Assembly (NCBI GenBank): GCA_018333605.1
Contig: JAGXSV010000014.1
Location: 1-64,000 of the forward strand
DNA: 64,000 nucleotides
DNA from: Hydrogenophaga sp.
Lineage (GTDB): Bacteria; Pseudomonadota; Gammaproteobacteria; Burkholderiales; Burkholderiaceae_C
Direction of reading: 5' to 3'
Every line of letters begins with the position of its first letter. Position 1 is the first letter of the stretch. The position numbers and the translations under genes were made by a program. The notes below the pieces were generated by a model. That model saw nothing but the letters and a program-made list of their open reading frames with translations. It had not been told where the DNA came from and did no database searches. Positions 16,402 to 35,099 of this stretch are shown here, piece by piece.

Positions 16402-17319
16402 TCAGACGGAGGTTGTGGGGCGGTGTTCGCGATGCTCAAACAGCCAGGCCTTGAAGGCCAGCGCTGCGGGCGAGAGCCGCTTGCCACGCGGGTACACCAC
16501 GTGCCAGCGGCGGATCAGCGGAAACCCCAGAACATCGAGCAACACCAGTTCGCCCAGTGCCAGTTCTGACACCACCGTGGTGCTGGAGAGCACCGCCAGC
16601 CCCAGGCCACCGGCCACGGTTTGCTTGATGGCTTCGTTGCTGCCGACCTCAAGCCGGGTTTTCAGCGTGATGCCCTGACTGGCGAAAAACTTCTCGGACG
16701 TGAGCCGGGTACCCGAACCGGGCTCGCGCAAGATGAAGGGTTCGTTCATCAGCCGCTGCGGTGACAGTTTCTTTTTTCCCACCAGCGGGTGGTTGGGCGG
16801 TGCTACCAGCACCAGCGGGTTGTCGGCAAAGTCTTCGCACACCACATCCATCTGTTCGGGCGGCTGGCCCATGATGTAGAGGTCGTCCTGGTTGGCGGCC
16901 AGGCGCTGCAGCAGGTTTTCCCGGTTGCCCACGAGCATGGCCACGTCAATGCCCGGATGTGCGGCGCAAAAGCCGCCCAGCAGCTTGGGTACGGTGTATT
17001 TCACGGTGGTCAGGATGGCGAGCTTCAGGCTGCCACGCTCCACGCCTTGCAGCGCCGCCAGATCCTGGGACAGCCGCTCCATGCGGCCCTCGATGTCCTG
17101 ACAGGCCTCGGCCAGCGTCTGGCCAGCAGCGGTCAAAAAGATCTTTTTCCCCAGCTGCTCAAACAGCGGCTGCCCCACCGTTTCCGACAGTTGCTTGACT
17201 TGCAGCGAGAGCGTGGGGGGTGACAGGTGCAGCTCTTCAGCCGCGCGTGCAAAGCTGCTGTGTCGTGCTACCGCCAGGAAGATGCGCAGCTGGTGCAGGG
17301 TGGCGTGGCGCAGGTTCAT
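16402..17319 (-). CDS. cbbR: LysR-type activator of Calvin cycle genes
   Basis: This LysR regulator (305 residues) most likely activates the divergent cbbL operon. The N-terminal winged helix reads HQLRIFLAVARHSSFARAAEELHLSPPTLSLQVKQL. An effector domain follows with KYTVPKLLGGF and LGLAVLSSTTV, both typical of CbbR. The position, back to back with cbbL across an AT-rich 157-bp gap, is the classic CbbR arrangement. CbbR proteins respond to metabolites such as RuBP or NADPH; the effector here is unknown. Confidence 0.92.
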   Translation of the reverse strand: MNLRHATLHQLRIFLAVARHSSFARAAEELHLSPPTLSLQVKQLSETVGQPLFEQLGKKIFLTAAGQTLAEACQDIEGRMERLSQDLAALQGVERGSLKLAILTTVKYTVPKLLGGFCAAHPGIDVAMLVGNRENLLQRLAANQDDLYIMGQPPEQMDVVCEDFADNPLVLVAPPNHPLVGKKKLSPQRLMNEPFILREPGSGTRLTSEKFFASQGITLKTRLEVGSNEAIKQTVAGGLGLAVLSSTTVVSELALGELVLLDVLGFPLIRRWHVVYPRGKRLSPAALAFKAWLFEHREHRPTTSV

Positions 17320-17418
17320 GGTTTACTTTAATAAAAGATAACGATGTAAACATTTTACTTTTATTTATCTTCTGTGATGGCCACAATCCGCATCAGTTCA
17401 GCGCACATCCAACCCAAA
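17320..17418. promoter_or_regulatory. cbbR-cbbL control region with CbbR-type operator
   Basis: This short AT-rich island stands out in a GC-rich region. Inverted arms AATAAAAG (17330-17337) and CTTTTATT (17358-17365) bracket a second one, GTAAA-CAT-TTTAC (17346-17358), and GTTTAC at 17321 mirrors GTAAAC at 17346. LysR regulators bind such AT-rich interrupted repeats between divergent genes, so this is the probable CbbR site. The transcription starts are not determinable by eye. Confidence 0.6.
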
Positions 17419-17445
17419 AAATGGGGCGCACTGGGCGCCCCATTT
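17419..17445 (+). promoter_or_regulatory. strong hairpin in the cbbL leader
   Basis: AAATGGGGCGC (17419-17429) and GCGCCCCATTT (17435-17445) form an 11-bp perfect stem with a 5-nt loop. It ends 31 nt before the cbbL start. No T-tract follows, so it is not a typical terminator. It could stabilise the transcript's 5' end or act in leader control. Confidence 0.55.
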
Positions 17446-17476
17446 GCAACCCACCAGTTTTCAACGAGGAGTGAAC

Positions 17477-18898
17477 ATGGCTGTCAAGACTTACAACGCC
17501 GGCGTCAAGGAATACCGCCAGACCTACTGGATGCCCGAGTACACCCCCCTGGATACCGACATCCTGGCGGTGTTCAAGATCACGCCGCAGCCTGGTGTGG
17601 ATCGGGAAGAGGTGGCGGCCGCTGTGGCGGCCGAATCGTCCACCGGCACCTGGACCACGGTGTGGACCGATCTGCTGACCGATATGGACTACTACAAGGG
17701 CCGCGCCTACCGCATCGAGGACGTGCCGGGCGACGACACCTGCTTCTACGCCTTTGTGGCCTACCCCATCGACCTGTTCGAAGAGGGTTCGGTGGTCAAC
17801 GTGTTCACCTCGCTGGTGGGCAACGTGTTTGGTTTCAAGGCGCTGCGCGCCCTGCGCCTTGAAGATGTGCGCTTCCCCATCGCCTACATCAAGACCTGCG
17901 GCGGTCCTCCCCTGGGCATCCAGGTCGAGCGCGACATCATGAACAAGTACGGTCGCCCGCTGCTGGGTTGCACCATCAAGCCCAAGCTGGGTCTGTCGGC
18001 CAAGAACTACGGCCGCGCCGTCTACGAGTGCCTGCGCGGTGGTCTGGACTTCACCAAGGACGACGAAAACATCACCAGCCAGCCCTTCATGCGCTGGCGC
18101 CAGCGGTTCGATTTCGTGCAGGAAGCCACGCTGAAGGCCGAGCGCGAGACCGGTGAGCGCAAGGGCCACTACCTGAACGTGACCGCCCCCACGCCCGAAG
18201 AGATGTACCGCCGCGCCGAGTACGCCAAAGAGATTGGTGCGCCGATCATCATGCACGACTACATCACCGGCGGCTTCTGTGCCAACACCGGCCTGGCCAA
18301 CTGGTGCCGCGAGAACGGCATGCTGCTGCACATCCACCGCGCCATGCACGCCGTGATCGACCGCAACCCGCACCACGGCATCCACTTCCGCGTGCTGACC
18401 AAGATCCTGCGCCTGTCGGGTGGCGACCACCTGCACACCGGCACCGTGGTGGGCAAGCTCGAAGGCGACCGCAACTCCACCCTGGGCTGGATCGACCTGC
18501 TGCGCGAATCCTTCATCCCCGAAGACCGTTCGCGCGGCATCTTCTTCGATCAGGACTGGGGTTCCTTGCCCGGCGCGTTCGCGGTGGCCTCGGGTGGCAT
18601 TCACGTCTGGCACATGCCCGCACTGGTGAGTATCTTCGGTGACGACTCGGTGCTGCAGTTCGGTGGTGGCACCCTGGGCCACCCCTGGGGCAACGCGGCC
18701 GGCGCCTGCGCCAACCGGGTGGCGCTGGAAGCCTGTGTGCAGGCCCGCAACGAAGGCCGCCCGCTGGAGAAAGAGGGCAAAGACATCCTCACCGCTGCCG
18801 CAGCGCATTCGCCCGAACTCAAGATCGCCATGGAGACCTGGAAAGAGATCAAGTTCGAGTTCGACACCGTGGACAAGCTCGACATCGCCAACAAGTGA
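17477..18898 (+). CDS. cbbL: RuBisCO large subunit, form IA (carboxysomal)
   Basis: This is the catalytic subunit of ribulose-1,5-bisphosphate carboxylase. At 473 residues it has form IA length. Active-site blocks include [35 protein letters not shown] with the carbamylated lysine (Lys194) and [12 protein letters not shown]. Loop 6 lies near GKLEGDR and is followed by [10 protein letters not shown]. The start ATG 17477 follows a GAGGAG ribosome site; an in-frame ATG 33 nt upstream lies in the leader hairpin and is rejected. Being followed by cbbS and csoS2 marks it as the carboxysomal IAc type. Confidence 0.98.
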
Positions 18899-18952
18899 CC
18901 GGTGCACAGCGCATCCGGCCCCACCCCTCATCCCCTCTGAAAGGAAACTGAC

Positions 18953-19279
18953 ATGGCTGTCCAAGTTTACAAATCGACCCAGAAGTACGAGACCTTCTCT
19001 TACCTGCCGCCCATGACGGCCGAGCAGGTTCGTCGGCAGATCGCCTACTCCATCGCGCAGGGCTGGAACCCGGCGGTGGAGCACACCGAAAAGGGCACCG
19101 CCGCCACCAGCAACTTTTGGTACATGTGGAAGCTGCCCCTGTTTGGCGAGCAGTCGGTGGATGCCGTGCTGGCCGAGGTGGAGGCCTGCCACCGCGAGTT
19201 CCCCAACCACCTGGTGCGTGTGATCGCCTACGACAACTACTCGCAGAGTCAGGGCATGTCTTTCGTCGTCTACCGCTGA
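18953..19279 (+). CDS. cbbS: RuBisCO small subunit
   Basis: This is the small subunit of form IA RuBisCO, 108 residues. The stretches [31 protein letters not shown] and [20 protein letters not shown] are typical. It begins 54 nt after cbbL with an AAAGGAAAC ribosome site and forms the L8S8 enzyme with CbbL. Confidence 0.97.
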
Positions 19280-19289
19280 GCATAAAAGC

Positions 19290-19306: not shown

Positions 19307-19345
19307 CCCAAGAACGGCACCGATCCCCATTGCAAGAGGTTTGAC

Positions 19346-21688
19346 ATGACATCCATTGGCTCAAGCGCAGTTCAAGTGACCCTGTCGGGTCGCGAATTGG
19401 CCCTGCAGCGGCGCCAGGCCATGGCTTTGCGCGGCAAGGCCGGCGTGGTCAGGTCCGCTGCGGCGCAGTCGGCGGCTGCCGCCGCGCCCAGGCCTGCGAT
19501 GGCACTGGCCAGGCCGACGCCACGCACCGCCGTGGCTGCGCTGGATGCCGGGCGTTCGGCACCGGTCACGGCGCCGACGGCGAGCGCGGCCCGCCAGCGC
19601 CGTCAGGCCTTGAGCCAGTCGGGCAAATCGGCGTTGGGTGCACAGGCGGTGGCCACGCGCCCGGCGCGCAGCCGGGCACCGGTGGCCTCGCCGCAGCAAA
19701 CGCTGGCCGCCTCCGATGCGCTGGCCGCCGACTGCGGTTGTGGTTGCAATGGCACGGGCTGCGCGATCGCTTCGGGCCCGATCGACGCATTCGCTGCGCA
19801 GCCCGCCTGCGGTGGGTCTGCGGCTTCATGTGCGCCCGCCATGGACATGGGCTCGACCCGCGCACTGGCCCGCGCCCGCCGTGTCGCCCTGGCCACCGAC
19901 GGCAAAAAGGGCTTGGTGCGCGTGGCGCAGGCCACCCGGCTGGCCGCCGTGCTGCCCCAGCAAGACTGGCAGCAGGCGATTGAAAAAGGCGCTTCGGGCC
20001 GCGAGGTGGCCAAGCAGCGCCGCCTGGTGCGCGCTTTGGTGGGTCGTGCAGAAGTTGCTTCGACAGCACCCCGGCCCAACGGCCGCATGCGCGCCAAGAA
20101 TGAAACCGCTGCTGCACCGCCCAAGGTGGCCATCGGTCACACGCTGTCCGGCCAGTCCGTCACCGGCACCCCGGTGGACAGCAGCCGCAAGGTGACGGGC
20201 AACGAAGCTGGTGCCTGCACCAGCGTCACCGGCACCGAATACCTGAGCCTGGAGCAGTTCAGCTCCGTGTGTGGCACGCGGCCTGCGCCGGGTCCGGCCA
20301 AGGTGGCGTTGAGCAGCACCCTGCGCGAACAGAAGGTGACCGGCACCGAGGTCGGTCGTTCCGCCCATGTGACGGGTGACGAGGCCGGATCGTGCCGCAG
20401 CGTCACCGGCACCGAGTACCTGTCGCGCGAGCAGCAGCAGACGGTTTGCGATGCCGTACCCCTGCCCGGCCCGCGCAAGGTCAGTGTCATGTCGTCGCAA
20501 GGCGGGCAAGCGGTTTCTGGTGTTGAGGTCGGGCGTTCCGTCAAGGTCACGGGCAACGAGCCCGGCGCCACCCGGCAGCTGACCGGCAGCCAGTACTTCA
20601 ATGCCACCGACTTTGGCCAACCCGCTGGTCGCGAGGCGCCCCCGAAGGTCGCCACGGTGCAGACCCTGGCGGGCAGCACGGTCACCGGCACCGAAGTCGG
20701 CCTCAGCTCCAAAGTGACCGGTGACGACCGCGGTGGATGCCGTGCCGTCACGGGCACCGAGTACATCAGCGCCCGCCAGCAGGGGGCGGTGTGTGCCACC
20801 ACCGAGCCGGTGCAACCCGTGCGCAAGGTGGGGCAGGACCAGACCTGGAACGACCAGACCATCACCGGCACCCGGGTCGGGCGCTCCAGGCAGGTCACCG
20901 GCGACGAGCACGGCGGTTGCGCACCCATCAGCGGCACGTCTTACATTGGGGTGCAGCAGTACCAGGGCTTTTGCGAACCCGCGCAACGTGACTCCCAGTG
21001 GGCACTCGGTCGCCGCGAAGCGCTGATCTCTGCCGCCACCGTGACGGGGGACCGTCCGGGGGCTGGTGGCAGCGCGATGACGGGTGACCAGCGCGGCGCC
21101 TGTGGCCCCATCAGTGGCACCCCGTATTTTGGCGCCGACAACCTGCCCCAGCAGTGCGGCACCAGCGGTCGATTTGTGGCCCCGGCTCGCCCGGAAAAAA
21201 CCGCCACGCCAGCCGCCACGGCCAAGGACTTCAGCATCCGCCCACCATCGCGCCAGGCGCAAGAACGGGCATCGGGCGGCGTCACGGGTTCGGCCTTCAG
21301 TGGGCAGCGCATCACCGGCACAGTCAACAAAGGCGGCGGACTCATCACCGGCACACCCGAGTTTCGCCACCGCGAGAGCGTGCCCATGCCAGCGCCGCAG
21401 CGGGAAGAAGTCAGCGCGGCCACCCGGCTCACGGGTGAGGGCAGCCAGTCGGGTGCCCGCATCAGTGGCGCGGCCTGGCAGACTTCCGGTCGTGTGACCG
21501 GAACCGAAGGCACTTCATCGCTGGCACGCAACCCGTCGCAGCGCGGTGAGGCGCGTGGCCAGGGCATGTCGGCGCTGCAGTTCCGAAAAGCCGAGCGTGT
21601 CGAGCAGCCGCAGAGCCGGGTCACCGGTTCGTCGGGCAACACCGCCAAGGGTGCTGCCGTGACCCTCTCGGGCGGCGCACGCGGCTGA
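19346..21688 (+). CDS. csoS2: carboxysome scaffold protein CsoS2
   Basis: This intrinsically disordered scaffold binds RuBisCO and shell and nucleates alpha-carboxysomes; it has 780 residues. Four basic N-repeats (about residues 15-33, 80-98, 172-190, 218-236, for example GRELALQRRQAMALRGKAG) match RuBisCO-binding motifs. Six M-repeats follow at about 259-309, 318-368, 377-424, 433-483, 492-543 and 555-604, with paired VTGTE/VTGD units and conserved Cys. Repeats 3 and 6 are degenerate. The C-region (645-780) ends in AAVTLSGGARG, the shell-binding peptide. Cysteines cluster at 130-139 (CGCGCNGTGC) in the N-domain. A GAA-AAA-AC stretch at 21194 lies at the M/C junction. Confidence 0.96.
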   Translation: MTSIGSSAVQVTLSGRELALQRRQAMALRGKAGVVRSAAAQSAAAAAPRPAMALARPTPRTAVAALDAGRSAPVTAPTASAARQRRQALSQSGKSALGAQAVATRPARSRAPVASPQQTLAASDALAADCGCGCNGTGCAIASGPIDAFAAQPACGGSAASCAPAMDMGSTRALARARRVALATDGKKGLVRVAQATRLAAVLPQQDWQQAIEKGASGREVAKQRRLVRALVGRAEVASTAPRPNGRMRAKNETAAAPPKVAIGHTLSGQSVTGTPVDSSRKVTGNEAGACTSVTGTEYLSLEQFSSVCGTRPAPGPAKVALSSTLREQKVTGTEVGRSAHVTGDEAGSCRSVTGTEYLSREQQQTVCDAVPLPGPRKVSVMSSQGGQAVSGVEVGRSVKVTGNEPGATRQLTGSQYFNATDFGQPAGREAPPKVATVQTLAGSTVTGTEVGLSSKVTGDDRGGCRAVTGTEYISARQQGAVCATTEPVQPVRKVGQDQTWNDQTITGTRVGRSRQVTGDEHGGCAPISGTSYIGVQQYQGFCEPAQRDSQWALGRREALISAATVTGDRPGAGGSAMTGDQRGACGPISGTPYFGADNLPQQCGTSGRFVAPARPEKTATPAATAKDFSIRPPSRQAQERASGGVTGSAFSGQRITGTVNKGGGLITGTPEFRHRESVPMPAPQREEVSAATRLTGEGSQSGARISGAAWQTSGRVTGTEGTSSLARNPSQRGEARGQGMSALQFRKAERVEQPQSRVTGSSGNTAKGAAVTLSGGARG

Positions 21689-21713: not shown

Positions 21714-23201
21714 GTGAACACGCTCAAACGTCTTGCTGCCATGCGCTCTGTTGCAGGCCTGCGCCAGCCGCAGGACCTGGACAACCCGGCGTGTGTGGTG
21801 GGTGCCGACCAACGCTGCGAGCACGCGTTGGTGGACCAGGCGCTCAACGAGCGCCTGTATGCCTACGAGCAGCGGGTGCGCGGGCGCTTCGCACCCATCG
21901 TCGGCTTGCTCAAGACCTTGTCGGCGTTGCAGCACGAGCTGGACTTTGCGGCACGTGCCCAGCAGCTGGCGCATGCCCAACTGGGTTATGCGCTGCCGGA
22001 TCGGCTGTTGAACGACGCCTGGATCGGTGGTCTGGACCTGCGGGCCCTGCATGCGCACTGCATCTTTTGCAGTTTCAAGGCCTGCATTGAAGGCGCTGCG
22101 ACCGACCAGGCGCCCTGGCTGGAGCGCATGGTGATCGACGCGGCGTTCCTGCGCTCGTGCGGCTACCACACGGTGGACCTCAGCCCCTGTGCCGATGGTC
22201 GCCTGCAAGGCCTGCTGCCGTTCGTGCTGCGCATGGCGCCGAACGATGCGGTCACCGTCAAGGCTTACGCTGGGGCGTTGTTCGATGTCGAGGCCGATGT
22301 GGCCGACTGGACGCGCCGCGAACTGGAGCGTCTGAGCGGTGGTCTGGTGGGTGCCGAGAGCTGCAACTACCTGAAGATCGCGGTCTACCACTACAGCAGT
22401 TCCAACCCTTGTCACCAGGGCTGCGCCGCCCATGGCAGCCAGGACCACCTGGCCACGACAGCGGCCACCGCCAAACTTGATGAACTGCGCGCCGCGGTGG
22501 ATAACAGCTTTGGCCGGGGTGCTGCGCCCGAGACGCTGCTGATCGGCATGGACACCGACACCGATGCGATTCGCGTGCACCTGCCCGACGAGCAGTCGGC
22601 CAACTGCCCGCTGCGCTATGTGGAGAGCGCGACGCTGTTCCGCGACACGCTGGGTTTGAGTGCGCCCGCTGCACGCGAGGCGATCACTCGGGCCGTGTCC
22701 AGCGCCGCGCGCGATGGCGGCCTGCGCCCCGGCATGCGTCAGCTCGTCGAGCGCCTGCTGGAGGCCAACTTGTCGCAGATCGAATACGTGATCCAGCACC
22801 ACGAAGGTCGCTACGCCGACATCGGGCACAACGAACGCTTCATCTGCGCGGGCGAGGCCATGAGCGAGCTGCAGCTGCGCAACAAGTTCTATTTCGCCCA
22901 CCTTGACACCGTGGAAGAGGGCGCGCCCGACCTGGACGTGGGCATCAAGATATTCACCGGGCTCAACGTCAGCCGCGGCCTGCCGGTGCCGGTGCTGGTG
23001 CACTTCCACTATGCGTCCCGCGTGCCTGGTGCGCGCGAACGCGCGATCAGCCGCTGTCGGCGGGTCAGGGCGGCCATCGAGTCGCGCTACGCCTCCCTGC
23101 ATGCACAAGGGCTGCTGCATTGCCAGATGGCGGTGAGCGACCAGGACGGCAGCGAGCGCTGCACCTGGATCGACGTGGCCACCGTGGCCAGCGGTCATTG
23201 A
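21714..23201 (+). CDS. csoSCA: carboxysomal carbonic anhydrase CsoSCA
   Basis: This shell-associated carbonic anhydrase (formerly CsoS3, epsilon class) converts bicarbonate to CO2 next to RuBisCO. Cys159, His226 and Cys237 fit the zinc ligands, with Asp161 and Arg163 as the catalytic dyad in CADGR. The spacing matches the Halothiobacillus enzyme (Cys173, Asp175, Arg177, His242, Cys253). The start is GTG 21714 and the length is 495 residues. It follows csoS2 by 25 nt. Confidence 0.95.
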   Translation: MNTLKRLAAMRSVAGLRQPQDLDNPACVVGADQRCEHALVDQALNERLYAYEQRVRGRFAPIVGLLKTLSALQHELDFAARAQQLAHAQLGYALPDRLLNDAWIGGLDLRALHAHCIFCSFKACIEGAATDQAPWLERMVIDAAFLRSCGYHTVDLSPCADGRLQGLLPFVLRMAPNDAVTVKAYAGALFDVEADVADWTRRELERLSGGLVGAESCNYLKIAVYHYSSSNPCHQGCAAHGSQDHLATTAATAKLDELRAAVDNSFGRGAAPETLLIGMDTDTDAIRVHLPDEQSANCPLRYVESATLFRDTLGLSAPAAREAITRAVSSAARDGGLRPGMRQLVERLLEANLSQIEYVIQHHEGRYADIGHNERFICAGEAMSELQLRNKFYFAHLDTVEEGAPDLDVGIKIFTGLNVSRGLPVPVLVHFHYASRVPGARERAISRCRRVRAAIESRYASLHAQGLLHCQMAVSDQDGSERCTWIDVATVASGH

Positions 23202-23226: not shown

Positions 23227-23484
23227 ATGAAGATCATGAAAGTCGAGAAAACGCTGGTGTCGACGAACCGGATCGATGCGTTTGGGCATCGGCCCTTGCT
23301 GGTGGTGCAGGACAAGGCGGGCGGCGCGCGCAGCGTGGCGGTGGACGCCGTGGGTTGCATCCCCGGAGACTGGGTGATTTGTGTCGGTTCGTCGGCGGCG
23401 CGGGATGCTGCGGGGAGCCGCGAGTTCCCGTCCGATCTCACCATCGTCGGGATCATCGATCACTGGCAAGGGGAGACGGTCTGA
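23227..23484 (+). CDS. csoS4A: carboxysome vertex protein CsoS4A
   Basis: This is a pentameric BMC-P protein that caps shell vertices, 85 residues. The MKIMKVEKTLVSTNRIDAFG start and the DAVGCIPGDWVICVGSSAAR core are diagnostic. Its stop overlaps the csoS4B start by one base (TGATG), giving coupled translation. Confidence 0.95.
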   Translation: MKIMKVEKTLVSTNRIDAFGHRPLLVVQDKAGGARSVAVDAVGCIPGDWVICVGSSAARDAAGSREFPSDLTIVGIIDHWQGETV

Positions 23485-23729
23485 TGGACATCATGCGCGT
23501 CAAGGACGAGCTGGTGTGCACGCGCCGGGTGCCAGGCTTGCGGTCGGCTTCGCTTCGGGTGCTGGAGAACCAGCAAGGCGACCTGTCGGTGGCCACCGAT
23601 GCGGTGGGTGTGCCGACAGGTAAATGGGTGTTCACCACCAGCGGCAGTGCGGCCCGGTTGGCGATGAGCGACCCGCAGGTCATCACCGATCTGAGCATTT
23701 GCGGAATCATCGATCAATGGGATCCGTGA
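23484..23729 (+). CDS. csoS4B: carboxysome vertex protein CsoS4B
   Basis: This is the second BMC-P vertex protein, 81 residues. MDIMRVKDELVCTRRVPGL and the AVGVPTGKWVFTTSGSAAR core parallel CsoS4A. The start ATG 23484 overlaps the csoS4A stop. A longer in-frame reading upstream is only the shifted frame of csoS4A. Confidence 0.94.
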   Translation: MDIMRVKDELVCTRRVPGLRSASLRVLENQQGDLSVATDAVGVPTGKWVFTTSGSAARLAMSDPQVITDLSICGIIDQWDP

Positions 23730-23829: not shown

Positions 23830-24126
23830 ATGGCTGATAACAGAGGCATTGCCCTGGGCATGATTGAGACGCGTGGCCTGGTGCCCGCCATTGAAGCGGC
23901 GGACGCGATGACCAAGGCCGCCGAGGTGCGTCTGGTGGGTCGCCAGTTCGTCGGTGGTGGCTACGTCACGGTGCTGGTGCGCGGCGAGACCGGTGCGGTC
24001 AACGCTGCGGTGCGCGCGGGTGCCGACGCCTGCGAGCGCGTGGGCGACGGCCTGGTGGCCGCGCACATCATCGCTCGCGTGCACAGCGAAGTGGAAGGCA
24101 TGCTGCCCTCCGCACCGACCCCCTGA
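23830..24126 (+). CDS. csoS1: carboxysome shell hexamer protein CsoS1, copy 1
   Basis: This single-BMC-domain protein builds the hexagonal shell facets, 98 residues. IALGMIETRGLVPAIEAAD, VGGGYVTVLVRG and AIIARVHSEVE-type stretches are signatures. A strong AAGGAG ribosome site lies upstream after a T-rich stretch (23785-23815), which fits high expression. Bases 23849-24107 are nearly identical to 24215-24473 in copy 2. Confidence 0.96.
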   Translation: MADNRGIALGMIETRGLVPAIEAADAMTKAAEVRLVGRQFVGGGYVTVLVRGETGAVNAAVRAGADACERVGDGLVAAHIIARVHSEVEGMLPSAPTP

Positions 24127-24183: not shown

Positions 24184-24534
24184 ATGGCGAATGTACGAGC
24201 TGCGGTGAACGGAGTTGCCCTGGGCATGATTGAGACGCGTGGCCTGGTGCCCGCCATTGAAGCGGCGGACGCGATGACCAAGGCCGCCGAGGTGCGTCTG
24301 GTGGGTCGCCAGTTCGTCGGTGGTGGCTACGTCACGGTGCTGGTGCGTGGCGAGACCGGTGCGGTCAACGCTGCGGTGCGCGCGGGTGCCGACGCCTGCG
24401 AGCGCGTGGGCGACGGCCTGGTGGCCGCGCACATCATCGCTCGCGTGCACAGTGAAGTCGAAGGCATGCTGCCGAGCGCACCCGATGGCGAAGGTGGTGG
24501 CCTCGACGGCGAAATCACCATGGTGCGCAGCTGA
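24184..24534 (+). CDS. csoS1: carboxysome shell hexamer protein CsoS1, copy 2 with longer tail
   Basis: This is the second BMC-domain shell protein, 116 residues. Its BMC core is identical in protein sequence to copy 1. It differs by a longer N-terminus (MANVRAAVNGV) and a C-terminal tail PDGEGGGLDGEITMVRS, comparable to the longer CsoS1B of Halothiobacillus. The 259-nt shared block differs at only three bases, so duplication is recent or gene conversion is active. Confidence 0.95.
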   Translation: MANVRAAVNGVALGMIETRGLVPAIEAADAMTKAAEVRLVGRQFVGGGYVTVLVRGETGAVNAAVRAGADACERVGDGLVAAHIIARVHSEVEGMLPSAPDGEGGGLDGEITMVRS

Positions 24535-24567: not shown

Positions 24568-25005
24568 ATGAACGCTGATCCCCGCACCCTGGGTTGGCTG
24601 AGTCGGGCACTGACGCACGAACTCGGCGCCGTTCAGCAGTACCTGGCGCAGAGCGCGCTGGCGCGACTCTGGGGCGAGGTGCAACTGGCCGGGCATTTGC
24701 AGCGCGAGGCGGCTGAGGAGTTGGGGCACGTTGAGCGGCTCATGGAGCGTTTGATCTTGCTGGGGGTGGCCCCCAGCGCCAGCGGTCTGGCGCCAGCCCG
24801 GCTGGGACGCACGGTCGAACAATTGCTGCTGGCCAACCGGCAAATGGAATGCGACGCGGTGCGCCTGTACCAAGAAGCCCTGTGGCACGCCACCCGCGTG
24901 CGCGATGGCGACGTGGCTGACCTGATGAGGTCCATTCTTGAAGAAGAAATGGCGCATCTGGCCGACATCGAGCACCTCATGAAGGAGCAAATGAATCATG
25001 GTTGA
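24568..25005 (+). CDS. ferritin-like (bacterioferritin-type) protein of the cso operon
   Basis: This is a 145-residue four-helix protein of the ferritin/bacterioferritin superfamily, seen in many alpha-carboxysome operons. Likely metal ligands are in LTHELGAVQQYL, EAAEELGHVERLMERL and ILEEEMAHLADIEHL, matching the E...ExxH pattern. Its role in carboxysomes is not established; iron or redox handling is a guess. It overlaps acRAF by 8 nt. Confidence 0.85.
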   Translation: MNADPRTLGWLSRALTHELGAVQQYLAQSALARLWGEVQLAGHLQREAAEELGHVERLMERLILLGVAPSASGLAPARLGRTVEQLLLANRQMECDAVRLYQEALWHATRVRDGDVADLMRSILEEEMAHLADIEHLMKEQMNHG

Positions 25006-25258
25006 ACAACCCGATGGCTGGGAGTCCCGCGGCAAGCAGCCGACACTGTTCCGGCGCTTTGATTTCGAGCGTTACGGTCAGACGCGTGATTTCGTGGATG
25101 CGTTGTCGGCGCTGACCGAGGCGCAGGGCGTGCACCCGCAAAATATCAATTTCGGCAGCACCTATGTGAACGTGACGCTGGATCCGAACGCGACCGGTCT
25201 GGCCGATAGTGAGCTGGCGGTGCGTATCAACGCCCTGTACCCGCCTGCGGGGGCCTGA
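24998..25258 (+). CDS. acRAF: alpha-carboxysome RuBisCO assembly factor
   Basis: This 86-residue protein has the pterin-4a-carbinolamine dehydratase fold. The usual catalytic HH-P motif is replaced by GVHPQNINFGSTYVNVTL, so it is probably not an enzyme. Carboxysomal members of this family act as a RuBisCO assembly chaperone for form IAc. It overlaps the ferritin-like gene and ends 2 nt before mcdA. Confidence 0.88.
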   Translation: MVEQPDGWESRGKQPTLFRRFDFERYGQTRDFVDALSALTEAQGVHPQNINFGSTYVNVTLDPNATGLADSELAVRINALYPPAGA

Positions 25259-25260: not shown

Positions 25261-25896
25261 ATGCCGACCCAGGTCACGGCGGTCATCAACCAGAAGGGCG
25301 GCGCGGGCAAGACCACGCTGGCCATGAACCTGGCCGCCGGTCTGGCCCGGCGTGGCAACACGGTGGTGATCGATCTTGATCCCCAGGGCTCTTCGGTGCA
25401 GTGGGCCAGCCAGGGCAGTGCGCCGTTTCCGGTGCCGGTCAAGCAGCTTCAAGGCCAGTGGGATGCGCGCAGCCTGCGCCAGACGTTTCGGGCCTTTGCT
25501 TACGTGGTGCTGGACTGTCCGCCGTCGCTGGAGAGCCATGCCTCGGTGCAGGCCTTGCGCGCCTGCGACCTGGCCCTGATTCCGGTGTTGCCCTCGCCAG
25601 TGGACCTGTGGGCCAGCCTGCGCCTGCCGCTGGAGATTGAAGAGGCGCGCCGCCTGCGGCCTCAGTTGCAGGCCTACCTGGTGCTCAACCAGATGGAGCC
25701 GCAGAGCGCGTTGTCCGGTGCCATGACCGAAGCCCTGGCCGACTTCGGACTGCCGGTTCTGCAGGCCACCGTGCGGCGCCGTGCCGCCTTTCGCACCGCT
25801 GCGCTGGACGGCGTGTCGGTCTACCAGATGGGTGGGCGTGGCGCGCCCGCCGCCGCAGACATCGAAGCCATCATCCACGAGATTCTTGCACCATGA
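25261..25896 (+). CDS. mcdA: ParA-type ATPase McdA, carboxysome positioning
   Basis: This ParA/MinD-family ATPase of 211 residues is probably the alpha-carboxysome McdA that distributes carboxysomes over the nucleoid. The deviant Walker A is KGGAGKTT (signature Lys12, Lys17), followed by VVIDLDPQGSS and VVLDCPPSLE. Its stop overlaps the start of the next gene (ATGA), the usual mcdA-mcdB arrangement. Confidence 0.9.
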   Translation: MPTQVTAVINQKGGAGKTTLAMNLAAGLARRGNTVVIDLDPQGSSVQWASQGSAPFPVPVKQLQGQWDARSLRQTFRAFAYVVLDCPPSLESHASVQALRACDLALIPVLPSPVDLWASLRLPLEIEEARRLRPQLQAYLVLNQMEPQSALSGAMTEALADFGLPVLQATVRRRAAFRTAALDGVSVYQMGGRGAPAAADIEAIIHEILAP

Positions 25897-26138: not shown

Positions 26139-27053
26139 ATGCCTAACGACTTCTACGCCAGAACCTATTCGCCGCGCCAGGAAGCGCTGGCGCGCGCCAG
26201 CCAGCAGACGCCCCAGACCTCGCTGCGCCAGGCCTCGGACACCACCGCGGTTGCCGAAGTGCTGGCGCCGCACCGGGTGCGCAGCGAGCCCTATTACCGG
26301 GCGGTGGCCGACGAGGTCGAGCTGTACGAGGCGGCGTACTCGGTGCGTATGCCCATGATGCTCAAAGGCCCCACCGGCTGCGGCAAGACCCGCTTTGTCG
26401 AGTACATGGCCTGGAAGCTGGACAAACCACTGATCACCGTGGCCTGCAACGAAGACATGACCGCCTCCGATCTGGTGGGCCGCCATTTGCTCGACGCCCA
26501 GGGCACACGCTGGCAGGACGGGCCACTGGCCGTGGCCGCGCGCCATGGGGCCATCTGTTACCTCGACGAGGTGGTCGAGGCGCGTCAGGACACCACGGTG
26601 GTGATCCACCCGCTGACCGATGCGCGCCGCGTGCTGCCACTGGAGAAAAAGGGCGAGCTGCTGCAGGCGCACCCCGACTTCCAGATCGTCATCTCCTACA
26701 ACCCGGGCTACCAGTCGCTGATGAAGGACCTGAAACAGTCCACCAAGCAGCGCTTTGGCGCGCTGGACTTCAGCTACCCCGAGCACGACACCGAGGCCGA
26801 GATCGTGGCGCACGAGTCGGGCGTGGGCCTGGATGTGGCCAAGAAACTGGTGCACATCGGCGAGCGCGCGCGCAACCTCAAGGGCCACGGCCTGGACGAG
26901 GGCCTGTCCACCCGCATGCTGATCTACGCCGGTTCGCTGATTGCGCAAGGCGTGTCGGCGCTGGCCGCCTGCCGGGTGGCGCTGGTGCGCCCCATCACCG
27001 ACGACCCCGACATGCGCGACGCGCTTGACGCGGCCGTGACCACCTATTTCTGA
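26139..27053 (+). CDS. cbbQ: RuBisCO activase component CbbQ (MoxR AAA+ ATPase)
   Basis: This AAA+ ATPase of the MoxR group, with CbbO, remodels inhibited RuBisCO. Walker A is GPTGCGKT (77-84) and Walker B is [17 protein letters not shown] and the [13 protein letters not shown] sensor region follow. It has 304 residues with a GAGGAG ribosome site. About 45 residues precede the usual CbbQ core. It starts a cbbQO pair inside the cso operon, typical for carboxysomal RuBisCO. Confidence 0.95.
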
Positions 27054-27080: not shown

Positions 27081-29435
27081 ATGGCCATCCACCTCGACGA
27101 CCACGCTGAGCTTCTGGCGGATTTGCCGCACGACGCGCAGGACGTGCTGCGCGCGGCCTGGGGCGAAGCGGCGCGGGTGTTTTCGGCGCGCGGGCTGGAC
27201 AACTACCTCAAGGGCGCGCTGGCCCTGCACCAGCTGGGGCGCGGCGAAGAACTGGTGGTGAGCTTCATCCAGACCATGCCCGAGGTGGCGCGCGCCATCG
27301 GCGAGGACGTGCTGCCCGACGTGGTCAACTTCCTGCTGGGCATGGCGTCCAAGACCTCGGGTGCGGTGCTCGCGCTGATCGTCGGCACGGCACCGCTGGC
27401 GGCCAGCCGTCTGGGTGACGAGGGGCTGTTTCGCCACTACCTGAACGTGCTGTCCATCGTGCTCGCACAGGCACCGCGCGGCCTGCGCCCGATGCTGGAG
27501 AACCTGGACCGCCTGCTGTCCCAGCTCACGCTGGGCGGGCTGCGGCGCTGGGTGATGTGGGGCGCGCAGGCCTACAAGGCCGACTTCGAGGGCCAGGTCA
27601 AATACTTCTCGCTGCAAGGCGGCGACGCGTTGTCGGTGCTGCAGCAAGAGCGCAAGGGCACCTTGTTCGTGGATGTGCAGCGCCGGCTCAACATGTACCT
27701 GCGCGCCCTGTGGGGCCGCGACTTCTTTCTGCGCCCGACCGCCGGCGACTACGAAAGCCGCGAGGGGCTCAAGCCCTACATCGAGCGTTTTTGTGTCCAC
27801 ATGGCCGATGCTTACGACGACTTTCGCCCCCAGGGCGATGCCACGCCAGACGGCGACGTGGTGGCAGGTTCTGAGGTCTACCGCGCCGTGGTCAACCACT
27901 GCGCGGCCCACCTGGTGTTCACGCAGGCGCCGTTGTCGCTGCAGACGCTGAACAACACGCAAAAGGCGATCATCGAGGTGGTGGAAGACGCGCGGGTGGA
28001 AGCACTGGCCTGCCGCCAGTTTCCCAACATGCGGGCCGCCTGGCTGGCCTTCCACCCGCAGCCCGACATGACCCAGCCACAGAGCCTGGGCGATCTGCTG
28101 AACCGCCTGGCGCGGGCCCTGCTGGACGAACAGTCGAGCGATCCGCACCCCTGGGTGCGGGAAGGGGTGGCGCTGTTTCGGGCCGAGTCCGACTTGTCTG
28201 GCAACCAGCTGAGCTGGAACATCGGCGTGGCGCTGGCGCACAGCCTGGGCCCGCTGGACCTGCCCGAATACAACCCGCGCACCGATGGCCTGCGCGCGCC
28301 CTACCGCGACGACAACCGCACCGTCTGGGCGTCCGAGGCCTACGACGAGGCAGCGGCGCTGGAGGCCACCTGGGCCCCGAAACAGGTGCGCAAGAAGGTC
28401 AGCCTGATGGAGATGGTCAACGAGACCAACAACGAGTTTGCCGGCGACGACGCGCAGGAAATCTGGGTGCTGCCGAGCGAGTTCTACCTCGACCAGGAAG
28501 GCGTGAGCATCAATTCGCTGGAGGGCCGAGCGCCGGTGGCCGACCCGGTGCATTACCACGAGTGGGACTATCAGATTCAGCTGGAGCGCCCGAGCTGGGT
28601 GACGGTGCTGGAGCGCCAGCCGCCGCTGGGCGATCTGGCGCTGATCGAGCAGATCGAGAACGAGCACAAGCCGGTGATGTCGCGCCTGAAGTTCCTGATC
28701 GGCTCCATGATCCCGCAAGGCATGCAGCGCATCCGCCGGGTCGAAGACGGTGACGAGCTGGACATCAATGCGGCCGTGCGCGCCATGATCGACATCCGCA
28801 TGGGCCAGCAACCCGACACCCGCATCATGATGCGCAACCAGCGCAGCGAGCGCGACCTGGCGGTGATGGTGCTGCTGGACCTGTCCGAGTCGTGCAACGA
28901 CAAGGTGCGCGGGCAGGACTACAGCATCATGGACCTGTCGCGTGCCGCCACGGTGCTGTTTTCGGACGCGCTGGACCGCATTGGCGACCCCTTCGCGCTG
29001 CACGGGTTCTGCTCCGACGGCCGGCACGATGTGCACTACCACCGTTTCAAGGACTTTGACCAGCCGTACAACGCCCTCGTGAAGGCGCGGCTGGCGGGCA
29101 TGAAGGGCGCCTACTCCACCCGCATGGGCGCGGCCTTGCGCCACGCCGGCGCGGCGCTCAAGCTGCAGCCCAGGCGCAAGAAGGTGCTGTTCATCGTCAC
29201 CGACGGCGAACCGGCCGACAATGACGTGCGCGACCCCCAGTACCTGCGCCACGACACCCAGCGCGCGGTGCAAGAGCTGGCGCGCGATGGCATCACCGTC
29301 TATGCCCTGAGCCTGGACCCGCACGCCGACCAGTACGTGGCGCGCATCTTCGGCGCCAAGCATTTCACCGTCATCGACCATGTGGAGCGCCTGCCCGAAA
29401 AGCTGCCGCTGCTCTACATGGGCCTGACCCGCTAA
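27081..29435 (+). CDS. cbbO: RuBisCO activase component CbbO (VWA protein)
   Basis: This 784-residue partner of CbbQ links the ATPase ring to RuBisCO. The C-terminal von Willebrand A domain shows the MIDAS motif in [14 protein letters not shown] (DxSxS), with a TDGEPADND segment later. The long N-terminal part is helical and family-specific. It follows cbbQ by 27 nt and ends 8 nt before csoS1D. Confidence 0.95.
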
Positions 29436-29443: not shown

Positions 29444-30073
29444 ATGGACATCAGCCTGCGCGCCTTCGTATTCATCGACTCGTTGCAGCCGCAACTGGCG
29501 TCGTACCTGGCCACCTCGTCGCAGGGCTTTCTGCCGATACCGGGCGACGCCTGCCTGTGGGTCGAGGTGGCCCCCGGCATGGCGGTGCACCGGCTGTCCG
29601 ACATCGCGCTCAAGCGCACCAATGTGCGCATGGGCGAGCAGGTGGTGGAGCGCTCGTTCGGCTCGATGGAGATCCACTACCGCAACCAGAGCGAGGTGCA
29701 GGAGGCCGGGCGCATCATGCTCGAGCAGCTCGGTGCCCAGGAGAGCGACCGCATGGCCTGCCGCATCGCCTGGAGCGAGGTCATCTGCGCCGTCACCCCG
29801 GACCACGCCACGCTGATCAACCGGCAGCTGCGCAAGGGCTCCATGCTGCTGCCGGGCAAGAGCATGTTCATCCTGGAAACCGAGCCGGCCGGTTACATCG
29901 TTTATGCTGCCAACGAGGCCGAAAAGGCCGCCAACGTGACCCTGGTGGATGTGAAGGCTTTCGGCAGTTTTGGGCGCCTCACCATGATGGGCACCGAGGC
30001 CGAGGCCGAAGCGGCCGCGCAGGCCGCGCACCGCGCCATCGACCAGCTCAACCGCCAGGCCCGGCACGACTGA
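29444..30073 (+). CDS. csoS1D: tandem-BMC shell protein CsoS1D
   Basis: This shell protein of 209 residues has two BMC folds in one chain and forms pseudohexamers with a gated pore. The first half holds [20 protein letters not shown]. The second half holds [21 protein letters not shown] and [20 protein letters not shown]. It is short compared with some CsoS1D proteins, which carry an N-terminal extension. It is 8 nt from cbbO and shares its transcript. Confidence 0.88.
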
Positions 30074-30124: not shown

Positions 30125-31117
30125 ATGAACGCAGGCGTTTTTTCCACCTTGCTGGACCCGGCCATTCTGTTTTTCATCCTCGGATTGTTTGCTGCGGCGG
30201 TGCGCTCGAACCTGGAGATACCGGCCCAGATCTCCAAATTCCTGTCCCTGTACCTGCTCATGGCCATCGGTCTGAAGGGCGGCATGGCCTTGAGTGTGAG
30301 CGGCATCCAGCCGCAGATATTGCTCGGTCTGGGCATCGCCCTGTTGATGGCCTTTCTGGTCCCGGCCTACACCTATCCCCTGCTGCGCCTGAGGACCGAC
30401 GGCTACAACGCCGCCGCCGTGGCCGCCACCTATGGGTCGGTGAGCGCCGTGACCTTTATTGCCGCCGGGCAGTTCCTGAACAACCAGGGCGTGGAGTTTG
30501 GTGGCTACATGGCGGTGGCCCTGGTGCTGATGGAGTCACCGGCCATCATCATGGCGGTGGCGCTGGCGGCCCATGCGCGCGGACAGGCGAACTTGCAAAG
30601 TGGTGCCGTGCCGGGGGCCGCTGGCGACAAGGTGTCCATGAAGAGTGTGCTGCACGAGGCGTTCACCGACGGTGGCCATCTCTTGCTGCTGGGCAGCCTG
30701 GTGGTGGGCACCGTGGTGGGGGTCAAGGGCTATGAAGTCATGAAACCCTTCACGGGCGACATCTTCAAAGGCCTGCTGGCCTTCTTCCTGCTGGAAATGG
30801 GTTTGCTGGTGGCGCGCCGGTTGCGCGAGATGAAGGGCATCGACCCCTTCTTCGTCGGCTTTGCCTTCGTGGTTCCCATGGTCAATGCACTGATCACCAT
30901 CGGCCTGGCGCACTGGGCCGGTTTGTCCGATGGCGACACCCTGATGCTGGCGGTGCTGGCGGCCAGCGCGTCGTACATCGTCGTGCCGGCGGTGGTGCGC
31001 GCCGCCATTCCGGAGGCCAACCCGGGCATCTACTTCAGCATGTCGCTGGCCATGACCTTCCCTTTCAACGTGATCATCGGCATTCCCCTGTACTACCAGC
31101 TGGTTGTTTACCTGTAA
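30125..31117 (+). CDS. sbtA: sodium-dependent bicarbonate transporter SbtA
   Basis: This inner-membrane importer of 330 residues belongs to the SbtA family, which takes up bicarbonate with sodium. About ten hydrophobic helices are visible. Family stretches are LYLLMAIGLKGGMALS, AAVAATYGSVSAVTFIAAGQFL, EFGGYMAVALVLMESPAIIM and the final ASASYIVVPAVVRAAIPEANPG. It stands between shell genes and a PII-like gene, the usual sbtAB order. Confidence 0.93.
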   Translation: MNAGVFSTLLDPAILFFILGLFAAAVRSNLEIPAQISKFLSLYLLMAIGLKGGMALSVSGIQPQILLGLGIALLMAFLVPAYTYPLLRLRTDGYNAAAVAATYGSVSAVTFIAAGQFLNNQGVEFGGYMAVALVLMESPAIIMAVALAAHARGQANLQSGAVPGAAGDKVSMKSVLHEAFTDGGHLLLLGSLVVGTVVGVKGYEVMKPFTGDIFKGLLAFFLLEMGLLVARRLREMKGIDPFFVGFAFVVPMVNALITIGLAHWAGLSDGDTLMLAVLAASASYIVVPAVVRAAIPEANPGIYFSMSLAMTFPFNVIIGIPLYYQLVVYL

Positions 31118-31521: not shown

Positions 31522-31548
31522 CGCTGCCTCGGTCTGAGAAAAGAGCCC

Positions 31549-32373: not shown

Positions 32374-32412
32374 ACCCATGGCAGGTCATAACAACAACCG
32401 TTCGGAGGCAAC

Positions 32413-32715
32413 ATGCAAGACAAGATGATTTACAGCGGCTTCAACCTGGATTCGCACGGCATGACCACGCTGGGGCGCGTCGTGCTGGACGCCTGGTTGT
32501 TCGATCTGCTGCCGCGCAGCGAAGACTGCACAGGCTGGGACCTGAACCGCATGCAGCAAGTCATGGACAAGGTATCGCTGGCCTGGGACGAACACGGCAG
32601 CCTGCCCAGCCGACTGCCGCCCGAGCTGCAACGGCGCCATGCCGAGTTGTATGCCTGGGCCGCCGCGCGTGGCCGGGGGCTGGGCTGGAACCCCGAGCTG
32701 GGCGAAGACGAGTAG
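32413..32715 (+). CDS. uncharacterised 100-residue protein
   Basis: I do not recognise this family. It is a soluble, acidic 100-residue protein with many tryptophans (LDAWLFDLLPR, CTGWDLNRM, VSLAWDEHG, ELYAWAAARGRGLGWNPELG) and no signal peptide. A GGAGG ribosome site precedes ATG 32413; ATG 32425 is an alternative. It lies 39 nt after the protease gene and 140 nt before the SulP gene. It is probably part of the same transcript. Confidence 0.7.
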   Translation: MQDKMIYSGFNLDSHGMTTLGRVVLDAWLFDLLPRSEDCTGWDLNRMQQVMDKVSLAWDEHGSLPSRLPPELQRRHAELYAWAAARGRGLGWNPELGEDE

Positions 32716-32855
32716 GGCGTTGTGCGCGCCGCGTCCTGGGCGCTGTCTGGCCTGGCGCCGCGCCAGGCACCGTGCCTTTGTTGCTTGTTCATCGTTTGGG
32801 GGCACACCATGTCCGATTTTGATACCACCCGGTCGCGACCCAACAGGGAGGCGAG

Positions 32856-35099
32856 ATGAGCTCAGAGACCACGCCCGCCAGCGGCTTTGCCGGGCTCAGG
32901 CACTGGCGCCATGACGCGCCAGCCGGTTTGCAGGTGGCCCTGCTGTGGATGCCGTTCTCGCTCGGGGTGGCGCTGGCCTCGGGCGCCCCGGCCATTGCCG
33001 GACTGATTTCGGCCATCGTCGCGGGCTTGCTGTATCCGCTGCTCGGGGGCTCGCACGTCACCGTCAGCGGCCCGGCGGCGGCGCTCGCGCCGGTGCTGCT
33101 GTGGGGCATGCTGCTGCTGGGGCACGGCGATCTGGCGCTGGGTTACCCGCTGGTGCTGGTGGCCATCGTGCTCACGGGCGTGCTGCAACTGCTGCTCAGC
33201 GCCCTGCGCGCCGGGCAGTACGCCGCCATGCTGCCGGCCACCGTGGTGGAGGCCATGCTCGCGGCGATTGGCATCATGATCATCGTGCGCCAGGTGCCGG
33301 CCTTGCTGGGTGCGCCGTCCGTGCCCGCCAAATCGGTGCTGGAGTCCCTTGCCCATTTGCCGCTGCAGCTGGCGCAAGCGCAGTGGCTGGTGGCGGCGGT
33401 GGGCATCGTCAGCCTGGGGTTGATGTTCGGCCTGCGGCGCCAGCTCGGCGGACTGTGGCGCTGGCTCCCGGCGGCCATCGTCGTGGCCGGCTTCGGCGTT
33501 CTGGCCAGCTCGCTGCTGGGTTTTGATGCGAAGCTGCGCATCGCCATGCCCGAGCATGTGCTGGACGGCATCCATTTCCCGGCGTTTGCCCATTTCCTGT
33601 CCAGCCCCGACCTGTGGCTGACGATGGCGCTGGTGGTGTTCACCTTCACCATGATCGACGGCGTGGAATCGGTCGCCAGCGTGAAGGCGGTGGACAAACT
33701 CGACCCCTGGCGGCGCAAGTCCGATGCCAACAAGACCCTGCGCGCCATGGGCGTGTGCAACCTCACCTCGGGCATGATCGGCGGGCTCACCGTGATCCCG
33801 AATGCCGTGCCCAGCCGCGCCAACATCGACGCCGGTGCGCGCACCCTGTGGTCCAACCTGTACAGCGGTCTGTTCCTGCTGTTGTTTGCCCTGGTGCTGC
33901 CCGATGTCCTCCGGCTCATCCCGCTGGCGGCCATCGCCGGCATCCTGATCTACATCGGCTGGCGCCTGTGCGAGCCGGCGCTGTTTGCGCGCATGCTGGC
34001 CATCGGCCGCGACCGCTTTGTGGTCTTCGTCGGCACCGTGCTGGCCATCTTGCTGACCGACCTGCTGCTGGGCATGTTCATCGGCGTGGCCATCGAGCTG
34101 GCGCTGCTGGTCTACCTGCTGATGCCCTCGCTGCGGCTGGTGCTCACCGGGCGCATGGACTGGGGCACTTCCAGCCGCCTGCTGTGGACCAATTTCACCA
34201 GCATGTTCCGCAGCCCGGTCATCAAGCACCGCAGCGAGGAGCACGCGGGCCAGACCGTGCACGTGCTGACACTGGGCTCGCTGGTCGGCTTCAACCTGCT
34301 GCCGCTGGAAAAAGCGCTGGCGCGCCTGCCGCAGAACGACGGTGTGCGGCTGCGCTTCACCGAGTCGGCGCGCATCATCGACCACACGGCGGCCGAGTTT
34401 CTGCAGCACTTCGAGGAAGAAGCGGCTGCCCACGGGCGGCCATTTTCGGTGGACGGGGTCGAGCACTTTCATGCCTTCTCGGCGCATCCGCTGGCCGCTC
34501 GCATGCAGGAAACCCACATTGCGCAGCAAATCGCTCAACGCGACGAACGGGCACAGCAGATGGCGGCGCTGGCCCAGCGGCTGGGACTGGCCTTCGCGCC
34601 GCAGGTCGCGTCCATCATCAACCGCCACGATTTTGTCTACCTGCGTCGCGGCGACCAGCGCGAGATCAGCAACCTCATGCACGGCGCCTGGGCCGGTGGG
34701 CAGATCCGGGTGTTCGACTACAGCCACACCTCGGCCCCCGACTACCACGTGCCGCACCGGCACACCCTCATGATGTATGAGCTGCCGGCCACCGTGACGC
34801 AGGCCGACTTTGTGCTCACGCCCGGGCATTATCTGGAGCGCTACCTCGTCAATCTGAGCGAGCACTCCGACATCGCCTCTGCACCGGGCTACCGGCTGTA
34901 TGTGCCACCGGGTCAGGTGCCCCCGGACATCCCGTTGGCGGTGCAGGATGCGCTGGAGCGCATGGGTCCGCTCTACATCGAGATTCGCCGAGGTGTCGTG
35001 CTTGCCTTTTGCCCGCAGCGGGCACTGGAGGATGCGCAACATACGGAAATGCTCGCTGCGCTCGCAACGGCGCTCGCAGAACGCCCGGCAGCGGCCTGA
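32856..35099 (+). CDS. SulP-family anion transporter with unusual C-terminal domain
   Basis: This inner-membrane transporter of 747 residues belongs to the SulP/SLC26 family. About residues 20-440 are membrane-embedded, with VTVSGPAAALAPV, MIGGLTVIPNAVPSRANIDAGA and LLGMFIGVAIELALLVYLLMP. A STAS-like domain covers about 465-555 (VHVLTLGSLVGFNLLPLEKA). Then about 150 extra residues hold a soluble domain with GQIRVFDYSHTSAPDYHVPH and LPATVTQADFVLTPGHYLER. Similar soluble modules occur in unrelated bacterial membrane proteins. The location suggests bicarbonate uptake, as proposed for other carboxysome-linked SulP proteins; sulfate is the alternative. Confidence 0.88.
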   Translation: MSSETTPASGFAGLRHWRHDAPAGLQVALLWMPFSLGVALASGAPAIAGLISAIVAGLLYPLLGGSHVTVSGPAAALAPVLLWGMLLLGHGDLALGYPLVLVAIVLTGVLQLLLSALRAGQYAAMLPATVVEAMLAAIGIMIIVRQVPALLGAPSVPAKSVLESLAHLPLQLAQAQWLVAAVGIVSLGLMFGLRRQLGGLWRWLPAAIVVAGFGVLASSLLGFDAKLRIAMPEHVLDGIHFPAFAHFLSSPDLWLTMALVVFTFTMIDGVESVASVKAVDKLDPWRRKSDANKTLRAMGVCNLTSGMIGGLTVIPNAVPSRANIDAGARTLWSNLYSGLFLLLFALVLPDVLRLIPLAAIAGILIYIGWRLCEPALFARMLAIGRDRFVVFVGTVLAILLTDLLLGMFIGVAIELALLVYLLMPSLRLVLTGRMDWGTSSRLLWTNFTSMFRSPVIKHRSEEHAGQTVHVLTLGSLVGFNLLPLEKALARLPQNDGVRLRFTESARIIDHTAAEFLQHFEEEAAAHGRPFSVDGVEHFHAFSAHPLAARMQETHIAQQIAQRDERAQQMAALAQRLGLAFAPQVASIINRHDFVYLRRGDQREISNLMHGAWAGGQIRVFDYSHTSAPDYHVPHRHTLMMYELPATVTQADFVLTPGHYLERYLVNLSEHSDIASAPGYRLYVPPGQVPPDIPLAVQDALERMGPLYIEIRRGVVLAFCPQRALEDAQHTEMLAALATALAERPAAA

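Follow-up and report, generated by a model that had tools for sequence, protein, structure and literature searches.

Gene content and order of the locus

The window analyzed here is a stretch of 64,000 nucleotides in contig C14 (JAGXSV010000014.1) of a Hydrogenophaga sp. metagenome-assembled genome (MAG, GCA_018333605.1; 2.74 Mb in 83 contigs, 62% complete). At positions 16,402–35,099 it carries what is very probably an alpha-carboxysome operon with bicarbonate uptake genes and a conserved accessory protease, belonging to a Hydrogenophaga-like chemoautotroph. A divergent cbbR gene is followed, all on the plus strand, by cbbLS-csoS2-csoSCA-csoS4AB-csoS1 (two copies)-bfr-acRAF-mcdA-(mcdB)-cbbQO-csoS1D-sbtA-sbtB-protease-hyp100-SulP (Table 1). 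Gene families were assigned by Pfam scans above cut-off, and NCBIfam and PADLOC models were scanned additionally. Form I RuBisCO, csoS2, csoSCA, a pterin dehydratase-like gene and the csoS1 and csoS4 shell genes are all present, which is the core set given for alpha-carboxysome loci in the accessible text of PMC4207490. The genes named in a first-pass annotation, made from the sequence alone, are all in place behind cbbR with Pfam scores above cut-off; its list lacked two genes lying between sbtB and the SulP gene, which encode a trypsin-like serine protease of 274 residues and a conserved protein of 100 residues, here called hyp100.

From cbbL to hyp100, neighboring genes are separated by −8 to 100 bp, and the largest gap, 140 bp, lies between hyp100 and the SulP gene. 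A promoter consensus scan returned one promoter-like site, on the opposite strand, for a shuffle mean of 1.9, and a terminator scan returned 14 terminator-like sites for 10.4 in the shuffles (SD 2.8), two weak ones being located in the hyp100–SulP gap; the consensus scans thus decide nothing. On homology and precedent, co-transcription along the locus is plausible, least so for SulP.

A protease gene conserved in one carboxysome lineage

In the protease, His51, Asp97 and Ser191, the last belonging to a GSSGSP motif, are invariant in all 11 operon-type sequences, which are 63–92% identical to that of the window, and presumably form the catalytic triad. The enzyme is taken to be presumably cytosolic because no leader peptide is apparent by eye. 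No convincing PDB chain emerged from a profile search with the protease (best E 0.05); its residues 1–268 match the PADLOC phage defense candidate PDC-S45 (2.5e-88).

The distribution of the gene was followed in a class-level sample (369 genomes, 72 with CsoS2, 71 of them besides the source genome) and an order-level sample (399 genomes, 44 with CsoS2; stretches were compared for the 43 others, 10 of them shorter than 20 kb). At 60% identity or higher, the protease is matched in the source genome, G283, G382, G313 and G085 at the order level, where any protease match in 37 other genomes is at most 41% identical, and in the source genome, G526, G681 and G775 at the class level, where 23 others reach at most 44%. 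When the source genome is excluded, all four order-level carriers possess CsoS2 against a background of 43/398 (chance 1.2e-4), as do all three class-level carriers against 71/368 (chance 0.007); both figures treat the genomes as independent, which genomes are not.

The protease gene adjoins cbbO or csoS1D in five of these seven carriers. The operon is unbroken in G526 (cbbO-protease-sbtA), G681 and G775 (both cbbO-csoS1D-protease) and G382 (cbbO-csoS1D-protease-SulP); in G085, csoS1D (seen from residue 32) and the protease gene lie behind a partial cbbR on a contig that is separate from csoS2 and possibly misjoined. The two remaining carriers show the order protease-hyp100-sbtA-sbtB, which starts at the very beginning of the contig in G283 and lies about 13 kb behind cbbO in G313. 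A further scan of contigs with SbtA, of which the best 80 of 492 relatives were considered, revealed the block csoS1D-sbtA-sbtB-protease-hyp100 in four relatives (L023–L026).

The ratio of nonsynonymous to synonymous substitution rates (dN/dS) of the protease is 0.114 against L023 (dS 0.63) and 0.023 against L024 (dS 2.2), dS against L026 being saturated. The corresponding values are 0.041 and 0.039 for csoS1D and 0.131 and 0.069 for cbbO, and the protease falls in the range of these genes. In a 20-row protease tree, built without L236 (G610, 33%), all 12 operon-linked rows group in a single clade (support 98/96); six forks are left open, and long outgroup branches meet. L023 and G016, which have contigs of equal length, are counted once. 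The protease gene, which the first-pass annotation overlooked, is an accessory gene conserved within a single carboxysome lineage.

The two candidate bicarbonate importers

SbtA aligns with the solved SbtA of Synechocystis (Slr1512; 7.4e-27). Its nearest named relative, among the best 80 of 492 in a scan that may skip the source genome itself, comes from a Hydrogenophaga MAG (92%), hence the designation Hydrogenophaga-like. A second SbtA, 39% identical, is encoded on contig C11 of the same genome (L021, G000:C11:4858-5781). The PII-like protein encoded behind sbtA has no cysteine among its 107 residues; cyanobacterial SbtB carries a C-terminal cysteine-containing R-loop, and because of the missing cysteine the protein appears to be SbtB/CPII-like and not a canonical SbtB. 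Over residues 8–79 it weakly matches the PII structure group of 5d4n (E 0.0047), a Thiomonas intermedia protein. Reportedly (Wheatley 2016), the T. intermedia PII-like protein CPII is encoded with the carboxysome locus; the present locus shares this placement and differs in that the sequence match is weak. In two Gammaproteobacteria MAGs (L027 and L029), the PII gene of an SbtA-SbtB pair precedes sbtA, and in L027 the pair adjoins a SulP match that the contig end truncates. In many proteobacteria, mostly Burkholderiales (L007, L015–L019 and many of L041–L102), an SbtA relative (52–60%) lies beside a divergent cbbR-like LysR gene, and the stretch read shows no match to a carboxysome gene.

The SulP protein passes the PF00916 superfamily cut-off and falls below that of the NCBIfam sulP subfamily (156.8 versus 380 bits). 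Its identification as BicA was rejected, the equivalog model NF050096 giving 131 bits versus a cut-off of 880. The long C-terminal part, residues 420–747 (34113–35096), is 53–71% identical in the carboxysome-linked SulPs of G382, G179 and G310; it has no Pfam match and no convincing match in a profile search against the PDB (best E 0.44). It may resemble a common uncharacterized bacterial domain. Behind SulP, on the minus strand, lies a truncated DDE transposase match (PF13701, 35672–36379, profile positions 16–117 of 435).

In the class sample, 25 of the 71 genomes encode SbtA no more than 15 kb from csoS2, and 10 encode a SulP relative (46–52%) that close; these same 10 have both importer types within that distance, on the same strand and downstream in eight. 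For these distance counts, CsoS2 matches broken into pieces were counted as one, some weak CsoS2 matches were omitted, only SulP rows with E ≤1e-60 were used, the two pieces of G725 were joined into one span, and the SbtA rows of G704 and G465, below cut-off, were left out. Among the 43 order-level stretches, a SulP of this type (66–78%) was found in three (G179, G310 and G382) and SbtA together with it in none; in G382, SulP is present at a locus without sbtAB. The first-pass annotation had described a dense single CO2-concentrating module with sbtAB and SulP and had proposed a comparison of gene order across related loci. The present comparison agrees with a CO2-concentrating locus that holds both importers. 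The implied rarity is mistaken: the idea that both importers in one locus are exceptional was rejected in view of the 10 class-level genomes and Thiomicrospira pelophila. Nor is a single module ending in SulP conserved. In all four close relatives (L023–L026) the gene next after the hyp100 block is an opposite-strand cbbR-like gene, and no SulP match occurs at that position. Behind this second cbbR, genes for a haloacid dehalogenase (HAD) hydrolase and a fructose-bisphosphatase are found in L023, L024 and L026, and one for phosphoribulokinase in L023 and L024. Because the second cbbR takes its place in these four relatives, SulP is regarded as a variable end-piece of the locus; it looks like a local substitution at the site of the second cbbR.

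According to the accessible text of PMC10880623, carboxysome loci commonly carry genes for transporters of dissolved inorganic carbon (DIC). In T. pelophila, sbt-CS and sulP-CS adjoin the carboxysome locus as SbtA and SulP genes do here, and each product rescues a carbonic-anhydrase-less E. coli and raises intracellular DIC (PMC12628692, accessible part). By analogy, this precedent supports bicarbonate transport by the SbtA and SulP of the window; T. pelophila belongs to another lineage, and the likeness is one of gene content. That study saw no induction of sbtA-CS and sulP-CS under DIC limitation, so that shared regulation cannot be assumed. The importer arrangement is therefore of a known kind, and the locus is ordinary apart from its one overlooked accessory gene.

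The NuoL and DUF2309 proteins of Halothiobacillus neapolitanus are known as DAB. No match to the DabA family was found in the source genome, which is 62% complete. The accessible text of PMC4633670 links cbbQ, cbbO, csoS1D, a pterin dehydratase-like gene and a PII/SbtB homologue to the H. neapolitanus operon, as in the window, whereas the expanded H. neapolitanus locus also includes the NuoL and DUF2309 proteins.

Interpretation and possible role of the protease

Judging from homology and precedent, SbtA and SulP would raise cytosolic bicarbonate, SbtA probably being gated by the neighboring PII-like protein. CsoSCA would convert bicarbonate to CO2 inside the shell, CbbQO would keep RuBisCO active, and McdA, with the McdB candidate, would space the carboxysomes. 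For the protease, we favor a job in the carboxysome, on the grounds of its recurring place beside cbbO or csoS1D and its strong conservation. The likeliest role, which we advance tentatively, would be proteolysis, either limited or for quality control, of some component of the carboxysome or of CbbQO, with CsoS2, CsoSCA, CbbO and the PII-like protein as candidate substrates. Put more broadly, it is possible, short of likely, that one lineage of alpha-carboxysome operons, spread over several gammaproteobacterial families and present in Burkholderiales as well, has its own dedicated serine protease, which was recruited from the defense-candidate family PDC-S45, is cytosolic and acts in maturation, turnover or the control of CbbQO/SbtAB. 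Such a protease would be, as far as literature searches show, the first one known to form part of a carboxysome operon.

No description of a carboxysome-operon protease was found in the literature searched, subscription journals being mostly outside its coverage. A 2014 locus taxonomy mentions a peptidase of unclear role in GRM3 loci and, in its accessible text, no word beginning trypsin (PMC4207490). Of two CbbQ papers (PMC4633670 and PMC8718961), one lacks the words protease, peptidase and trypsin and the other has one only, in a reference title; none of the word stems protease, peptidase, trypsin and SbtB occurs in the main text on T. pelophila (PMC12628692).

The match to PDC-S45 would also suit an anti-phage effector that hitch-hikes in the operon, for example guarding cells that invest in carboxysomes, and has no carboxysome role. 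Distant homologues occur in genomes without a CsoS2 match (G618, G469, G738, G474, G523 and G288), and the three distant homologues scanned from outside carboxysome loci match PDC-S45 as well. The neighborhoods of these three vary: one adjoins genes for a WD40-repeat kinase and an AAA/M41 protein, another glycosyltransferase and SIS/GATase genes, and the third CobW and AhpC genes. Defense genes typically turn over fast, unlike the operon-linked proteases, which make up one conserved, slowly evolving clade placed beside cbbO or csoS1D in several families. Moreover, PDC-S45 is itself unproven and only a candidate label, which the accessible text of PMC12429752 reports in prophages and lists among systems called hypothetical; the window protease matches its model, but has carboxysome and transport genes as neighbors. 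An effector of this kind is therefore considered unlikely. Some trypsin-fold proteins are pseudo-enzymes, and the protein could likewise be catalytically dead or a scaffold that works by binding CsoS1D, CbbO or SbtAB. AlphaFold2 prediction with five close sequences leaves the triad geometry without a reliable model (predicted local distance difference test score, pLDDT, 38.5). Against this, the three presumed triad residues are invariant in the operon-type proteins and are kept in most distant homologues, L236 having lost the serine, and we deem a dead enzyme quite improbable.

A comparable doubt concerns SulP, which might be a transporter of sulfate or another anion, brought downstream by rearrangement near an insertion sequence element and standing outside the carboxysome operon. 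The 140-bp gap, the truncated transposase match behind the gene, the score below the BicA cut-off and the second cbbR at the same position in four relatives, which Calvin genes follow in each of the three loci scanned, all fit such an origin. Near-full-length relatives that include the C-terminal part are nevertheless encoded in the carboxysome loci of G382 (78%), G179 (71%) and G310 (66%), as are the more distant ones near csoS2 in the 10 class-level genomes, in a survey that covered CsoS2-positive genomes only. This alternative is rated as improbable, and bicarbonate uptake by SulP in a carboxysome context is retained as the preferred reading.

Several observations weigh against our reading of the locus as a whole. 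The sole phosphoribulokinase-family match in the 62%-complete MAG is weak (30.9 bits), which falls short of demonstrating a full Calvin cycle. SbtA lies far in sequence from its structurally solved cyanobacterial counterpart, whose stretch SSSDISGPP corresponds to SASYIVVPA here. SulP scores far below both the BicA equivalog and the sulP subfamily cut-offs, and the wide gap before it and its absence from the closest relatives speak against its being a fixed part of the locus. As to the protease, its PADLOC family label is that of a phage defense candidate, and the pLDDT is too low for the triad geometry to be checked. Most carboxysome genomes do without it, carriers amounting to 3/71 at the class level and 4/43 at the order level. 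Three carboxysome genomes (G441, G695 and G610) have distant homologues at sites removed from csoS2, and sbtAB separates csoS1D from the protease gene in the window and in L023–L026.

As an alpha-carboxysome operon with bicarbonate uptake, the locus adds a Hydrogenophaga-like example to a known importer pattern and may help in picking bicarbonate transporters for transplanted carboxysomes. The conserved protease matters more than the importers: carboxysome maturation and removal are poorly known, and an operon-encoded protease would offer a direct genetic handle on them. The protease further points to another job for at least one subgroup of a phage-defense-candidate family, or to defense genes being kept in metabolic operons.

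Features of individual genes

The coordinates and assignments of all features are collected in Table 1. An alternative cbbL start, TTG at 17444, was dropped in favor of the ATG at 17477, most likely the true start, which is preceded by a ribosome-binding-like GAGGAG. The region between cbbR and cbbL probably holds the promoter and CbbR sites.

Table 1 Features of the carboxysome locus, in window coordinates
Feature	Coordinates	Strand	Assignment and remarks
cbbR, LysR-type regulator, divergent	16402..17319	-	PF00126 and PF03466
cbbR-cbbL intergenic region, 157 bp	17320..17476		AT-rich stretch and GTTTAC/GTAAAC repeats (by eye)
cbbL, form I RuBisCO large subunit	17477..18898	+	PF00016, PF02788
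cbbS	18953..19279	+	PF00101
csoS2	19346..21688	+	PF12288, 441 bits
csoSCA, carbonic anhydrase	21714..23201	+	PF20686, PF08936, PF20687; GTG start
csoS4A, vertex protein	23227..23484	+	PF03319 (EutN_CcmL), 84.1 bits, cut-off 25
csoS4B, vertex protein	23484..23729	+	PF03319, 73.9 bits; start overlaps csoS4A stop (from sequence)
csoS1, copy 1	23830..24126	+	PF00936
csoS1, copy 2	24184..24534	+	PF00936
bfr, bacterioferritin-like protein	24568..25005	+	PF00210
acRAF, pterin dehydratase-like	24998..25258	+	PF01329, 29.6 bits, cut-off 26
mcdA, ParA-type positioning ATPase	25261..25896	+	PF13614; NF041546, 196.6 bits, cut-off 180
mcdB candidate, 70 aa	25893..26105	+	Position and 46–51% matches in L023, L024 and L026 only; no Pfam or NCBIfam match
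cbbQ	26139..27053	+	PF08406, PF07728
cbbO	27081..29435	+	von Willebrand factor A (VWA) domain; matches adjoin cbbQ in relatives
csoS1D/CcmP-like tandem bacterial microcompartment (BMC) protein	29444..30073	+	PF00936, 33.5 bits; NCBIfam CcmP 240 bits, below cut-off 340
sbtA	30125..31117	+	PF05982 (Sbt_1), 373.4 bits, cut-off 27
sbtB/CPII-like PII protein, 107 aa	31190..31513	+	PF00543, 40.6 bits, cut-off 25
Trypsin-like serine protease, 274 aa	31549..32373	+	PF13365 (Trypsin_2), 40.5 bits, cut-off 27.6; PDC-S45 match
hyp100, conserved 100-aa protein	32413..32715	+	12-sequence alignment
SulP transporter, long C-terminal part	32856..35099	+	PF00916 (Sulfate_transp), 167.9 bits, cut-off 23.2, residues 18–392

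Programmed frameshifting was considered as a possible non-proteolytic route to two forms of CsoS2; csoS2 contains only two in-frame X-XXY-YYZ heptamers, both in its first third and GC-rich or mixed.

In a 12-row alignment, hyp100 is a well-kept protein of 100 residues with W(N/D)PEL and an acidic tail at its end. It has no Pfam or NCBIfam match, and a profile search against the PDB gave nothing convincing, the best hit (E 0.018) being a designed-looking helical chain. Within the class sample, hyp100 is found in 51 of the 72 CsoS2 genomes, in two of them (G499 and G659) as a weak partial match. Only six of the 50 carriers other than the source genome have it within 20 kb of csoS2, and in at least seven a strong cbbO match lies no more than 5 kb away from it, a lower bound, cbbO rows weaker than about 1e-179 having been omitted, with the second G441 piece merged and the second G631 piece not. 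In six Burkholderiales loci (G066, G072, G109, G117, G212 and G253) it lies downstream of cbbO. Searched for in CsoS2 genomes only, hyp100 is read as a gene of chemoautotrophs that is sometimes linked to cbbQO, and our guess is a CbbQO-linked helper.

The two csoS1 copies share 98% identical DNA over 268 nt (23849–24116 versus 24215–24482), which suggests a recent duplication or gene conversion.

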